This document shows positions 37,386-42,437 of a stretch of 64,000 nucleotides of DNA, piece after piece. The translations under genes and the position numbers were made by a program. The stretch covers positions 1 through 64,000 of the forward strand of contig NZ_MUNR01000012.1 of NCBI RefSeq assembly GCF_002001045.1, given 5' to 3'. Below the pieces are notes generated by a model, which saw only the letters and a program-made list of their open reading frames with translations, did not search any database and was not told the DNA's origin. How positions within the stretch are numbered: position 1 is the first letter of the stretch; the number at the start of each line of letters is the position of its first letter. Source of the stretch: Rhodanobacter sp. C01. GTDB taxonomy: Bacteria > Pseudomonadota > Gammaproteobacteria > Xanthomonadales > Rhodanobacteraceae.

Positions 37386-38645
37386 ATGAACGAAAAAACT
37401 TCCCCGTCCCCGCGTCTGGCTGAGCCTGCGCTGCGCCGCCCCAGCGTGGCCGTGCAGATCGGCAAGGTCATGGTCGGCGGCGGCGCACCGATCGTGGTGC
37501 AGTCGATGACCAACACCGACACCGAGGATCCGGCCAGCACCGCGAAACAGATTGCCGAGCTGGCGCGCGCCGGTTCCGAACTGGTGCGCATCACGGTGAA
37601 CACGCCGGCTGCTGCTGCAGCGGTGCCGCGCATTGCCGAGCGCCTGGCGATGATGGGTGTGGACGTGCCGATCATCGGCGACTTCCACTACAACGGGCAT
37701 CAGCTGCTGGAACATGAGCCGGCCTGCGCCGAGGCACTGGCGAAGTACCGCATCAATCCCGGCAACGTCGGTTTCGGCAAGAAGAAGGACAGCCAGTTCG
37801 GCGCGATCATCGAGATGGCGCTGCGCTACAACAAGCCGGTGCGCATCGGCGCGAACTGGGGTTCGCTCGACCAGAGCATGGTCACCACGCTGATGGACGA
37901 GAACCACAAGCGGGCGGAGCCGTGGGATGCCTCGCACGTGGCACGCGAGGCACTGATCCGCTCGGCGCTGGATTCCGCTGCGCGTGCCGAGGAAATCGGT
38001 CTGGCGCGCGACCGCATCATCCTGTCGTGCAAGGTGTCCGGGGTGCAGGAGCTGATCGCGGTGTATCGCGACCTCGCCGCACGCTGCGACTACGCGCTGC
38101 ATCTGGGCCTGACTGAGGCCGGCATGGGGTCCAAGGGCATCACCGCGTCGAGCGCGGCGCTGGCCGTGCTTCTGCAGGAAGGCATCGGCGACACCATCCG
38201 CATCTCGTTGACGCCCGAACCGGGTGCCTCGCGCACCGGCGAGGTGATCGTGGCGCAGGAGCTGCTACAGACCATGGGCTTGCGCTCGTTCACGCCGCTG
38301 GTCACCGCCTGCCCGGGTTGCGGGCGCACCACCAGCGAGTTCTTCCAGGAACTGGCGAAGACCGTGCAGGAACACGTGCGCGAACAGATGCCGCTGTGGC
38401 GCATCAAGTACGACGGCGTGGAGAACCTGACGCTGGCGGTGATGGGCTGCATCGTCAACGGACCGGGCGAATCCAAGCACGCCAACATCGGCATCTCGCT
38501 GCCCGGCAACGGCGAGGCGCCAGCAGCGCCGGTTTTCATCGATGGCGAGAAGGCGATGACCTTGCGCGGCGACAACATCGCCAGCGAATTTGTCGGCATT
38601 CTGGATGGCTACGTGGCCAGCCATTACGCCTCGCGCACCGACTGA
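37386..38645 (+). CDS. ispG: 4-hydroxy-3-methylbut-2-enyl diphosphate synthase (IspG/GcpE)
   Basis: 419 residues, full length. Makes HMBPP from MEcPP in the MEP isoprenoid pathway using a [4Fe-4S] cluster. Visible: [21 protein letters not shown] at the TIM-barrel start, [14 protein letters not shown]-type acidic residues, and the cluster cysteines in [13 protein letters not shown] plus [10 protein letters not shown]. The C-terminal tail ([20 protein letters not shown]) occurs again, diverged, at 41391. Followed by a transferred-looking two-gene cassette. Confidence 0.97.
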
Positions 38646-39029
38646 ACGGCGTCATCCCACTTCGCGCCCTCCACCCGGACGCGTCGACCCGCGCGGTTGA
38701 CAGTCCGGCGAGGGTGACCGGTGGCAGGAAGTGCGGTACGCCCGGCTTGTTGCACGCCAGTGTCGGAACGGTCTACGTCGTCTGTTGCTGGAAGCTGGCA
38801 TTGAACCGCGCTAGAGTCCGACCGTTGGGGGCAATCGGCTGAGGGGGACAATTCGCCCTGCTGCAAAGACGAATAGTGCGGCTGGATGAATTTCGTGCTG
38901 CCTTGTTCTTGCTTGGGGGTGTTTGCGTCTGGTGCTGGTTTTCCGGGCTACGGTGGCCGCTTCGGCCATCATCTTGGCTTGGAGCGCCGTACCTGTCTGT
39001 ATGGGTAAACCTTTGCAAGGCCAGGCTTT
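38646..39029. other. spacer between ispG and the glycosyltransferase
   Basis: 384 bases with no supported gene on either strand and no recognisable relic. The sequence turns visibly less GC-rich towards the glycosyltransferase start. It may hold the promoter of the inserted cassette. The junction with the cassette lies somewhere within it. Confidence 0.5.
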
Positions 39030-40103
39030 ATGCCGCTCGTGAGCGTTATCGTACCCACCTTTAATCGGGCCTATTGTCTCGCACGGACGCTGGATAGCGC
39101 GCTGGCACAGACTTACGCCGAGATTGAAGTGCTGGTTGTCGATGATGGCTCCACGGACGACACGAGGGCGATGATCGAATCTCGCTATCGCAACGACAGT
39201 CGCATCAGATATATCCACCAAGTCAACGGCGGGGTTGCCAAGGCTCGAAATACGGGAATCGCTGCGGCGACCGGTGCCTTCGTTGCACTGCTGGATTCCG
39301 ACGATGTTTGGCGGCCGTGGAAAATCGAACTGCAGGTTTTGTGCATGCAGGCATTTCCCGAGATCGTGATGGTATGGACGGACATGGAGGGCATGGATCC
39401 TTCGGGCCGGATATTCGACAAGGCATATATCCGCACCATGTACAGCGCCTACCAGTTTTTCCCCGAAGGCACTTTGTTCCCGGAGGCGTACCCGCTTGAA
39501 GGGATAGCCCCGTCGTTGCAGGCGGTTGTACAAGGCGCCAAGCTCCATAAGGGTTATATCTTTTCCCAGATGATCATGGGCAATCTGGTGCACACATCGA
39601 CCGTGCTGCTTCGCCGGGAATGCCTGGATCAGGTCAAGGGTTTCAACGAAGCGTTGCGTTATTCGGGCGAGGATTACGATTTTCACCTGAGGACTTGCCG
39701 GGCAGGCCCGGTCGGCTTCATCGACCTGGCGGCAATCCAGTATCAGCGGGGCATGCCGGACCGGCTTACGCGCGCTGAGTACCACATCCACACGGCGACC
39801 AATTTCCTCAACACGGTCAAGCCGTTTATCGACAATGCGCGTGCAGAAATCAACTTGCCGCAAAGCATGATCGATGTGATGTTGGCCGACGCCTATCTCT
39901 GGATCGGCGAGCTGCAGGTCGACATGGACGACGACGCGAATGCGCGAAAGAATCTGATTTTCAGCATGCGGCACCGATTTTTTCAGCCACGTGCGTGGCT
40001 GTTCTATCTTGCCTGCTTTCTACCGCACAAGGTTCGCGCCTGGCTCAGGGGGCAATACCGGATGATAAAAGCGCAAATCCATCCTGGGATCTCTCACTCA
40101 TGA
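39030..40103 (+). CDS. family 2 glycosyltransferase
   Basis: 357 residues, GT-A fold. MPLVSVIVPTFNRAYCLARTLDSAL starts the nucleotide-sugar domain, VDDGSTDDT and the DXD equivalent LLDSDDVWRP are present, and FNEALRYSGEDYDFHLRTC carries the acceptor-side acid. The enzyme adds sugar from a nucleotide donor to an unknown glycan, lipid or protein. It overlaps the next gene by 4 bases (ATGA), so the pair is co-translated. Codon use is less GC-extreme than the flanking housekeeping genes (TTT, TTG and ATA codons are more frequent by eye). Confidence 0.92.
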   Translation: MPLVSVIVPTFNRAYCLARTLDSALAQTYAEIEVLVVDDGSTDDTRAMIESRYRNDSRIRYIHQVNGGVAKARNTGIAAATGAFVALLDSDDVWRPWKIELQVLCMQAFPEIVMVWTDMEGMDPSGRIFDKAYIRTMYSAYQFFPEGTLFPEAYPLEGIAPSLQAVVQGAKLHKGYIFSQMIMGNLVHTSTVLLRRECLDQVKGFNEALRYSGEDYDFHLRTCRAGPVGFIDLAAIQYQRGMPDRLTRAEYHIHTATNFLNTVKPFIDNARAEINLPQSMIDVMLADAYLWIGELQVDMDDDANARKNLIFSMRHRFFQPRAWLFYLACFLPHKVRAWLRGQYRMIKAQIHPGISHS

Positions 40104-41416
40104 CCGGCGGCTACCAGCGGATGTCCGGTGTCATTGATGTGGAAAATCAAACGGTAGAGGGCAACCCGGCATTCGTTTGCCGGCGATCGGTTTGCGAAGT
40201 GCACGATACGCTGGACTGCGAGTGCGCCATCGATAACGCGCCGTTGGTTGAGCCATTGGTCGTGCGTGTCATTCAGGACGTGGCTGCCTGGGATGCTATT
40301 CGTGAAGAGTGGGATCGGCTCTATGCTGCCAGTCCCACGGCTTCGACACCGTTGGACTTTGTCTGGTTGCGGCGCTGGTGGCAGGTGTATGCGTCCGTCT
40401 ATGGTGCCGGTGGCCTGCGCATCATCACGCTCTGGCGTGGCTCCGTATTGTCCGGTGCACTGCCGCTTTATATCGCTGGCGCCGACGCGGGCAGGGTGGC
40501 TGCCCGCTGTCTGCGATTCGTGTCGACAGGTGAAGAAGAATTTGAGGAAATCTGCCCGGACTACCTCGACCTGCTGCATCTGCCGGGGGAAGACACGGCT
40601 TGTGCAGAAGCAACATGGCTTGCGATTGATGCCATCGAGTGGGATACGCTGGAATTTCTCGACCTGCCACAGAGTTCGCCCTTGCTGCGCAGGCTGGAAT
40701 TCTTTCCTCGCCATAGGCGCGCACGAGTTGCCACGCGTGGTGGTTGCCCTATCGCGAACCTCGATGGCGGCTTCGACAGATATCTGACGCAATTGTCTTC
40801 CAAGACGCGCATGCGAGCGCGCCAGGAAATTCGCAAGGCCGAAAAATCCGGGGTGCTGTTTGAACTGGCCACCGAGGCGGACAGTGAAGCGTATTTCGAC
40901 GACTTGATCCGGTTGCATCAGGCGCGCTGGACGGCAGAGGGCAAGCCGGGATGCTTTTCCGCCCCAAGGTTCACCCAGTTCCATCGAGGCTTGCTGCAGG
41001 CGTGGACGAAGGGCGGGCGCCTGATTCTGGCGCGGCTGTCTCATCAAGGGAAAGCTTGCGTCGTGCTGTATGGCTTTGTGACGTGCGCCAAATTTGATCT
41101 ATACCAGTTGGGTGTTGGGTCGATTGAGGGAACCAACATACGCAGTCCGGGCACGCTGGCCAACCTTCTTCTGATGGAGCAGCTGGCTGGTCGTGGCGTG
41201 AATCGCTACGATTTTTTGCGCGGAAACAGCGAGTTCAAGAAGTCGCTCACTACGGAACATCGTGACCTCGTCTGCCTTCAATGCCGCCGCCTTACTTCAC
41301 GTGCGCTGCTCGATCAAGTCATGCGGCTGCTGACACGAGTGTTTCGGAAGATGAGCCGGATGGTTCGCCAGGGCTGGACAAGCTCAAGAGGCGCCGGTCG
41401 TGCTGGTGTTGATTGA
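40100..41416 (+). CDS. BioF2/CelD-type GNAT acyltransferase
   Basis: 438 residues. The C-terminal half is an Acetyltransf_6 (BioF2-like) domain: TKTRMRARQEIRKAEKSG-type basic helix (SSKTRMRARQEIRKAEKSGV), LIRLHQARWTAEGKPGCF, LARLSHQGKACVVLYGFVTC and YQLGVGSIEGTNIRSPGTL, then YDFLRGNSEFKKSLT. Such proteins modify extracellular polysaccharides (CelD/BcsL, FemAB-like enzymes). Translational coupling to the GT2 gene implies a shared glycan target. The N-terminal 70 residues are unassigned. The reading frame ends on a stop inside the ispG-tail relic, with which its last codons overlap. Confidence 0.85.
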   Translation: MTGGYQRMSGVIDVENQTVEGNPAFVCRRSVCEVHDTLDCECAIDNAPLVEPLVVRVIQDVAAWDAIREEWDRLYAASPTASTPLDFVWLRRWWQVYASVYGAGGLRIITLWRGSVLSGALPLYIAGADAGRVAARCLRFVSTGEEEFEEICPDYLDLLHLPGEDTACAEATWLAIDAIEWDTLEFLDLPQSSPLLRRLEFFPRHRRARVATRGGCPIANLDGGFDRYLTQLSSKTRMRARQEIRKAEKSGVLFELATEADSEAYFDDLIRLHQARWTAEGKPGCFSAPRFTQFHRGLLQAWTKGGRLILARLSHQGKACVVLYGFVTCAKFDLYQLGVGSIEGTNIRSPGTLANLLLMEQLAGRGVNRYDFLRGNSEFKKSLTTEHRDLVCLQCRRLTSRALLDQVMRLLTRVFRKMSRMVRQGWTSSRGAGRAGVD

Positions 41417-41519
41417 CGGCGAGAAGGCGATGATCTTGCGCGGCTACAACATCGCCAGCGGATTCGTCGGCATCCTCGACGATTACGTCGCGCGCAAGTA
41501 CACGGTGCAGGCTGGCTGA
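41391..41519 (+). pseudogene. orphan 3' tail of ispG (recombination scar)
   Basis: In a frame shifted from the acyltransferase, 43 codons read APVVLVLIDGEKAMILRG then YNIASGFVGILDDYVARKY to a stop. The intact ispG ends [20 protein letters not shown], then [14 protein letters not shown]. Most of the tail matches at protein level while many codons differ at the third position, so it is a diverged allele rather than a fresh copy. It has no start and cannot encode IspG. It marks the downstream border of the GT2/acyltransferase cassette. Confidence 0.88.
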
Positions 41520-41624
41520 GGCTTCTGTCACACTGTATCGGTGGTCGGTGCTTCACACTTTCGCCTGTCCACGACGAAGCGTGGCGTGAATGCCGCGTGC
41601 GAGACCCCTCGCCGGAGCCTTGCC

Positions 41625-42437
41625 GTGAAGATCAGTCCCCAATTTCGCATTGCCTTTTTCTATGTGCTGCTTTCGGTGCTGTGGATCTGGTTTTCGGATC
41701 GCGCACTGAATGCCATGGTGCATGGACAGGCCGAACTCACCTTCCTGCAAAGCATCAAGGGTGGCCTGTTCGTGCTGCTCACCGGGATCGTGCTGTACTG
41801 GATGATCGGGCGTGACCTGGGCCGGTTGAAAGCCGTCAACCAGACCTTGCGGGATGGCCATCAGCAGTCGCTACGTGTGCTGGTGTCGGCGATGGACATC
41901 CGCCACAAGGAAACCGGCGACCACTCTGATCGGGTGATGCGCATGGCCGCTGGCCTGGCCCGACTTGCGGGTGTGCATGGCGATGCACTGCGCAATCTCG
42001 AGTTTGGCGCGCTGCTGCACGACATCGGCAAACTGGCGCTGCCGGACGCGGTACTGGTCAAGCCGGGCAGGCTGAATGAGGATGAGATGGCACTGATGCG
42101 CCAGCATCCGCAGATCGGCCACGACTTGCTGCAGCGGGTGGATTTCCTGCATGGGGCCGCCGACATTCCATACAGTCATCACGAGCGCTGGGACGGCAGC
42201 GGTTATCCACAAGGTTTGCACGGCGAGGCGATTCCGCTGGCGGCGCGGATATTCAGCGTGGTCGATGTGTGGGATGCGCTGATCACGGCGCGCGTCTACA
42301 AGCCGGCGTGGCCGGAGGCCGAGGTGCTGGACTATCTGCGCCACGCGGCCGGCAGCCAGCTTGATCCGAACCTGGTGGCATTGTTTCTTGAGCATCGCGC
42401 GGAAATCACGAGGCTTGGCGACGCGACCAGCGGCTGA
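41625..42437 (+). CDS. membrane-anchored HD-GYP domain phosphodiesterase
   Basis: About 270 residues. GTG 41625 is chosen for a GGAG ribosome-binding site 8 bases upstream; the frame is open to 41541. Two transmembrane segments (FRIAFFYVLLSVLWIWFSDRAL; GGLFVLLTGIVLYWMIG) precede a complete HD-GYP domain: KETGDHSDRVMRMAAGLARL, LLHDIGKLALPD (HD), MRQHPQIGHDLL, HHERWDGSGYPQGL (GYP variant intact), ARIFSVVDVWDAL. It probably degrades cyclic-di-GMP. Directly downstream of the ispG relic, so its original neighbour was probably ispG. Confidence 0.9.
   Translation: MKISPQFRIAFFYVLLSVLWIWFSDRALNAMVHGQAELTFLQSIKGGLFVLLTGIVLYWMIGRDLGRLKAVNQTLRDGHQQSLRVLVSAMDIRHKETGDHSDRVMRMAAGLARLAGVHGDALRNLEFGALLHDIGKLALPDAVLVKPGRLNEDEMALMRQHPQIGHDLLQRVDFLHGAADIPYSHHERWDGSGYPQGLHGEAIPLAARIFSVVDVWDALITARVYKPAWPEAEVLDYLRHAAGSQLDPNLVALFLEHRAEITRLGDATSG

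Follow-up and report, generated by a model that had tools for sequence, protein, structure and literature searches.

A displaced ispG tail as the probable scar of gene gain behind a housekeeping gene in Rhodanobacter

Introduction

Homology-facilitated illegitimate recombination is a mode of gene gain for which S. pneumoniae, A. baylyi and P. stutzeri are mentioned in the sections of PMC3240628 used here. Such recombination has also been proposed by the authors of a study on the orphan immunity genes of the V. cholerae type VI system, according to the excerpted sections of PMC5361080.

Where no mobile element is involved, gene content is usually the sole basis for deducing gene gain, but at the locus described here, a displaced gene end preserves both the event and its direction. 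The locus is part of the window, the whole stretch of 64,000 nucleotides that was analysed, and belongs to a Rhodanobacter genome of 3.98 Mb in 14 contigs (the window genome) from a soil bacterium. It is situated at the 3' end of ispG, an essential housekeeping gene, and represents a well-preserved scar of an already known mode of gene gain.

Results

Organization of the ispG locus

The features of the locus are collected in Table 1. The intact ispG gene is followed by the genes for a family 2 glycosyltransferase (GT2) and a GNAT-fold acyltransferase, which are joined by an ATGA overlap, by a second ispG 3' end (the relic), and by an HD-GYP-type gene, downstream of which aat is located on the opposite strand. 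The GC contents of the GT2 and acyltransferase genes are 56% and 59%, respectively, compared to 66% for ispG and 62% for the HD-GYP-type gene. The names aat, trxB and GNAT2 were given by recognising the translations and denote presumed identities. The first 60 nt of ispG (37386-37445) are more variable than the rest of the gene, with 82-83% identity to the genomes G015 and G014 and at most 72% to others.

Table 1. Features of the ispG locus in the window.
Feature	Position	Strand	Remarks and basis
ispG	37386-38645	+	Intact ORF; probably a hybrid, the 5' part being resident and the 3' end imported (first half nearest G015/G014, tail atypical)
Last ~20 codons of intact ispG, clearly unlike the resident-type tail	38586-38645	+	Site table, sliding identity
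Spacer ispG-GT2, 384 nt, no relative; presumably belongs to the insert	38646-39029	+	Blast of family genomes
Family 2 glycosyltransferase (GT2) gene	39030-40103	+	PF00535, E 3.4e-35; GC 56%
GNAT-fold acyltransferase gene; last 9 codons and stop inside the relic	40100-41416	+	PF13480, E 4.4e-24; ends compared with relatives
Displaced resident ispG tail (relic), decaying, 43 codons and stop	41388-41519	+	IspG protein and DNA matches, site tables
Resident-type spacer ispG-HD-GYP, 105 nt	41520-41624	+	96% to G014 and G015 over 104 nt
HD-GYP-type gene, resident right flank	41625-42437	+	PF13487; groups with G014, SH-aLRT 96

An ispG C-terminus behind the gene pair

Behind the gene pair, in a frame other than that of the acyltransferase gene, positions 41388-41519 translate into EAPVVLVLIDGEKAMILRGYNIASGFVGILDDYVARKYTVQAG, followed by a stop codon. 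A previous reading of the DNA from its sequence only had already recognised an out-of-frame IspG C-terminus after the cassette, which starts one codon further 5' than assumed there (at 41388, not 41391). Searching the whole genome with IspG returned the gene itself and the relic as sole matches (relic E 3.8e-9, 70% identity), and at the DNA level, the two tails share 82% identity over 104 nt (E 1.2e-21); therefore, the likeness of the relic to IspG is not due to chance. The earlier notion that the relic is the tail of a different allele rather than a recent duplicate holds as well.

The relic contains no stop within its 43 codons. Seven of its bases are absent from all 66 other tails compared; six of these are at otherwise invariant sites, and all seven alter the amino acid. 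The dN value between the relic and G014 amounts to 0.112 vs. 0.011 between G014 and G015, i.e., about tenfold more. Judging from these substitutions, the relic is decaying under relaxed constraint, and the insertion is therefore not very recent.

Occurrence and relatives of the gene pair

The cassette looks ordinary, consisting of the genes for a predicted glycan glycosyltransferase and a predicted acyltransferase, neither of which reached a curated NCBIfam cut-off. None of the other 44 genus genomes carries the pair at ispG, which supports its acquisition at the ispG 3' end, as proposed before. Matches to the acyltransferase were present in 7 of the 45 genus genomes (six besides the window genome, at 50-63% identity) and, at E 1e-30, in 9 of 233 family genomes including the window genome. 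GT2 matches at E 1e-30 were obtained in six of the 45 genus genomes, namely the window genome, four with 63-66% identity, and G025 with 29%. A polysaccharide deacetylase gene follows the pair in five relatives (G013, G029, G012, G005 and G110), and a further GT2 gene comes next in G013 and, as judged by blast, in G029. By this arrangement, the pair in the window is equivalent to genes one and two of a longer glycan operon, which is sited elsewhere in some relatives; in the flanks retrieved for ten different acyltransferase loci (13 stretches in total, three of them occurring twice), ispG was absent.

No donor was recovered with the acyltransferase from the 233 family genomes or from two scans of genome contigs, one of which returned nothing and the other ten loci with at most 62% identity. 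A search of plasmids, which returned 20 records with a best identity of about 30%, gave no donor either. The spacer in front of the GT2 gene (38646-39029) produced only matches of 25-37 nt in two other genomes when compared with the 233 family genomes.

The relic as the resident tail

Relic and following spacer (41388-41624, 237 nt) align without gaps to the ispG end and spacer of G014 (89.9%) and G015 (89.0%), which are the nearest Rhodanobacter genomes in this comparison, and the spacer alone is 96% identical to either of them over 104 nt. The distance from the relic to the HD-GYP-type gene equals the usual distance between ispG and HD-GYP of about 106 nt, and the window gene groups with that of G014 in an HD-GYP tree of 31 rows (SH-aLRT 96). 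The ending of the intact ispG tail is atypical, G014, G015 and G023 all ending in DDYVARKYxxRxx. Its closest match among the tails compared reaches only 86-88%, and endings of the THYASR type also occur in other genera (G108, G111).

In a tree of genus tails, of the kind suggested by the sequence-only reading, the intact tail fell with G018, G039, G026 and G041 (support of 93, not starred), yet holding it with the relic alone was not rejected (p 0.14). A clade of the own tail, the relic, G014, G015 and G023 was rejected (p-AU 0.036), and holding the own tail with G014, G015, G016, G023 and G025 resulted in p-AU 0.076. The relic held together with G014, G015 and G023 was 19.9 log units worse, yet not rejected (p 0.148). 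Such trees are weak with so short a sequence and thin if taken alone; it is the spacer and the right flank that decide. Relic and spacer align gap-free to the nearest genomes, and the HD-GYP-type gene clusters with that of one of them, G014; the relic is therefore the displaced resident tail, which reverses the direction assumed in the sequence-only reading. The tail that intact ispG now carries was probably brought in together with the GT2 and acyltransferase genes.

Junctions of the insert

The acyltransferases of relatives extend beyond the last alignable residue by 0 (G012), 3 (G029 and G016), 10 (G013) or 23 residues (G022). The window protein continues for 13-16 residues; its final nine codons, starting at codon 430, and its stop codon are read from the relic, out of frame. 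The 3' end of the acyltransferase gene meets resident ispG within some 15 nt of the last alignable residue.

On the left side, own and resident ispG alleles are indistinguishable from 38514 to about 38585. The gene is intact with a tail unlike those of its near relatives, and in the body tree its first half is nearest to G015/G014, whereas the second half takes no resolved placement, so the left crossover cannot be placed on the present sequences. The body trees are used only for the statement on the first half: a quick tree joined the own gene with G014, G015, G016, G023 and G025 at 98, the better tree in a clade test joined it with G026, G041 and G024, and in a careful tree the latter clade was 19 log units worse and not rejected (p 0.235).

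DNA behind ispG in other Rhodanobacter genomes

Comparing the region from ispG to HD-GYP across relatives, as the sequence-only reading had proposed, we found HD-GYP after ispG in 30 of the 44 other genus genomes (match start 89-256 nt past the stop codon in 27), aat directly after ispG in 10, and an insert without HD-GYP in 4. Sorted differently, the same 44 comprise 27 with HD-GYP within 89-256 nt, 10 with aat, and 7 with other extra DNA. At the protein threshold used, a further IspG tail turned up in none of them, the second IspG matches of G033 and G039 being due to an ispG split between contigs.

In G024, about 8.75 kb of DNA behind ispG are closed by a displaced tail of 10 codons, VATHYASRTD plus stop (L104:9452-9484, minus strand). 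The insert codes for a type I secretion ATPase, an HlyD-type adaptor, a 218-aa protein without Pfam match, an M10-type protein and a sulfotransferase. The displaced tail is followed by a spacer and an aldo/keto reductase gene, both of which lie directly behind ispG in the sister genome G041; the region of tail and spacer is 93% identical to that of G041 over 145 nt and 92% over 183 nt. The ispG body of G024 is 95.1% identical to that of G041, and the endings of the tails differ. In the tail tree, placing G024 with G041 was not rejected (p 0.257), so the tree alone is no proof of a swap; rather, the displaced tail itself proves it. G024 is a second, independent case of a displaced tail, the displaced piece being 33 nt long vs. 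132 nt in the window.

Extra DNA behind ispG is present in 8 of the 45 genomes, namely the window genome, G024, G026, G041, G018, G039, G025 and G005. It consists of an aldo/keto reductase gene in G026 and G041, of methyltransferase genes (69% identical) in G018 and G039, and of about 440 nt with no gene identified in G005. In G025, genes for a Phd/YefM antitoxin and for an ATPase of zeta-toxin type, which narrowly misses the cut-off of Pfam, are located between ispG and aat (L103:1580-2664), where others have HD-GYP. On a quick ispG tree, extra DNA behind ispG amounts to five changes, at least three of which are forced by starred branches; shuffled labels gave as few changes in 130 of 500 cases. 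As controls, the aat-GNAT2 interval exceeded 100 nt in 1 of 33 genomes and the GNAT2-trxB interval exceeded 600 nt in 3 of 24, counting only genomes for which sufficient sequence was available. Although the ispG interval varies, it shows no clear excess over its neighbours, and what it contains is not glycan genes in particular. The idea of a recurrent exchange point for surface-glycan genes therefore holds in part: it gains from the second displaced tail and the five changes, but the mixed contents and the gain of DNA in neighbouring intervals speak against it.

Search for further scars

The last 60 residues of IspG were compared with the 233 family genomes, 193 of which showed a match and 40 did not. 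More than one match was obtained in three genomes, the window genome (relic), G132 and G189. The second match in G132 is a full-length IspG paralog (L105:6137-7336; 63.5% identity to window IspG over residues 17-416), and one of the two extra matches in G189 is an assembly overlap at contig ends. The other is an orphan IspG tail of 28 codons beside a DUF6766 gene (L096:1501-1584), whose best DNA match among 67 tails is that of Rhodanobacter G032 (87% over 77 nt). The own ispG end of G189 gave no blastn match to it, and it is either another scar or part of a contaminating contig.

A DNA scan for tails continuous with the native spacer covered 66 genomes, i.e., the 45 of the genus and 21 hand-picked from the family, mostly from the top of the list of tail matches. 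Five genomes were listed, of which the window genome and G024 are real cases; the matches in G021, G028 and G036 show about 70% identity and lie in what is taken as the aat region.

Mechanism of the insertion

We consider it probable (roughly 85%) that a foreign ispG 3' end with the GT2 and acyltransferase genes entered by homology within ispG and an illegitimate far joint, displacing the resident tail. In this scenario, foreign DNA carrying the ispG 3' end of another lineage, followed by the two genes, would have entered the Rhodanobacter lineage. Homologous recombination inside resident ispG on the left would have produced an intact hybrid gene, and on the right, the DNA just behind the acyltransferase gene would have been joined without long homology to resident ispG at a point some 43 codons short of the stop codon. 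The resident tail, spacer and HD-GYP-type gene would have been pushed about 2.9 kb downstream, and the displaced tail would have decayed since. The resident type of relic, spacer and right flank, the relatives lacking the cassette, the relaxed constraint and the scar in G024 stand on direct sequence comparison; from them, we infer that tail and cassette arrived in one event and that homology was combined with an illegitimate joint. A ComEC-family gene (PF03772) is present in the genome, which is hardly informative, as 10 of the 14 control genomes, among them that of E. coli, carry one too.

Alternatively, though clearly less probably, the cassette and a 3' fragment of ispG may have been borne by a circular molecule that integrated by a single crossover within the tail. 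This would yield the same product (an intact hybrid gene, the cassette and a 5'-truncated tail) with no need for an illegitimate joint, and circularisation with single crossing-over is a fate of linear DNA reported for E. coli in the sections consulted of PMC3240628. The similarity of own and resident sequences from 38514 to about 38585 is expected for a crossover inside the tail, although this likeness may just reflect conservation. Against this alternative, the displaced pieces of 132 and 33 nt would require two different fragments, and the plasmid matches of the acyltransferase are no better than about 30%.

Insertion of islands by a site-specific recombinase, with the element restoring the tail, would fit two inserts at the same gene end with a displaced tail in each, but is very unlikely, since no recombinase family was found by Pfam in the window pair or in the five ORFs scanned of the G024 insert (which also contains a short ORF on the opposite strand), the repeats are only 82% alike, and the displaced tails are unequal in length (132 vs. 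33 nt). We likewise give little credence to a tandem duplication of the resident ispG end with later insertion between the copies: it would explain two tails in the same orientation, but the intact tail is allied to other tails rather than to the resident type, even though its placement as sister of the relic is not rejected (p 0.14). The view of the sequence-only reading, in which the cassette brought along the end of a donor's ispG as the relic while the tail of the intact gene is resident, accounts for a relic that differs from that tail like another allele, but is almost certainly wrong given the gap-free match of relic and spacer to the nearest relatives, the resident HD-GYP-type gene behind the relic, and the atypical tail of the intact gene.

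Discussion

With a second case at ispG in another species, the displaced tail becomes a usable pattern, and a search of conserved genes for such tails could give the direction and approximate age of captures across whole genomes. It is a tentative and rather doubtful idea that the Rhodanobacter ispG 3' end is a preferred landing pad for integrase-free capture, its DNA being sufficiently conserved between species to anchor foreign DNA, unlike the sequence behind it. If this were true, each capture would swap the C-terminus of IspG and displace the old one, and atypical C-termini would be a record of captures. Full-text literature searches gave no title on ispG as an insertion point, which is not proof of absence.

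The locus differs from an integrase-borne genomic island by the lack of a recombinase gene in the window pair and the five scanned G024 ORFs and by the lack of identical att repeats (82% over 104 nt); displaced tails of 132 and 33 nt disfavour one fixed att site. It resembles the minimal mobile elements of Neisseria, in which different whole-gene cassettes lie between the same two conserved genes (PMC3082526, in the parts used here). Among the 45 genus genomes, the ispG-aat interval is either empty or occupied by HD-GYP or by one of several inserts, as expected for the two conserved genes of such an element. Unlike in the Neisseria case as presented in these parts, species are compared here (one genome each), and one joint appears to be non-homologous and leaves a scar. 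In the case of the V. cholerae orphan immunity genes, a new module likewise lands next to a conserved anchor, and the former 3' part ends up further downstream as an orphan; there, however, a whole, possibly useful gene is retained and arrays build up, as far as the excerpts of PMC5361080 show, whereas the orphan described here is a 43-codon, decaying scrap of a housekeeping gene. Apart from being deduced from a natural scar between species, the event at ispG would share with homology-facilitated illegitimate recombination, as outlined in the consulted parts of PMC3240628, the homology at one end, the illegitimate joint at the other, the gain of foreign DNA, and the resident DNA kept downstream.
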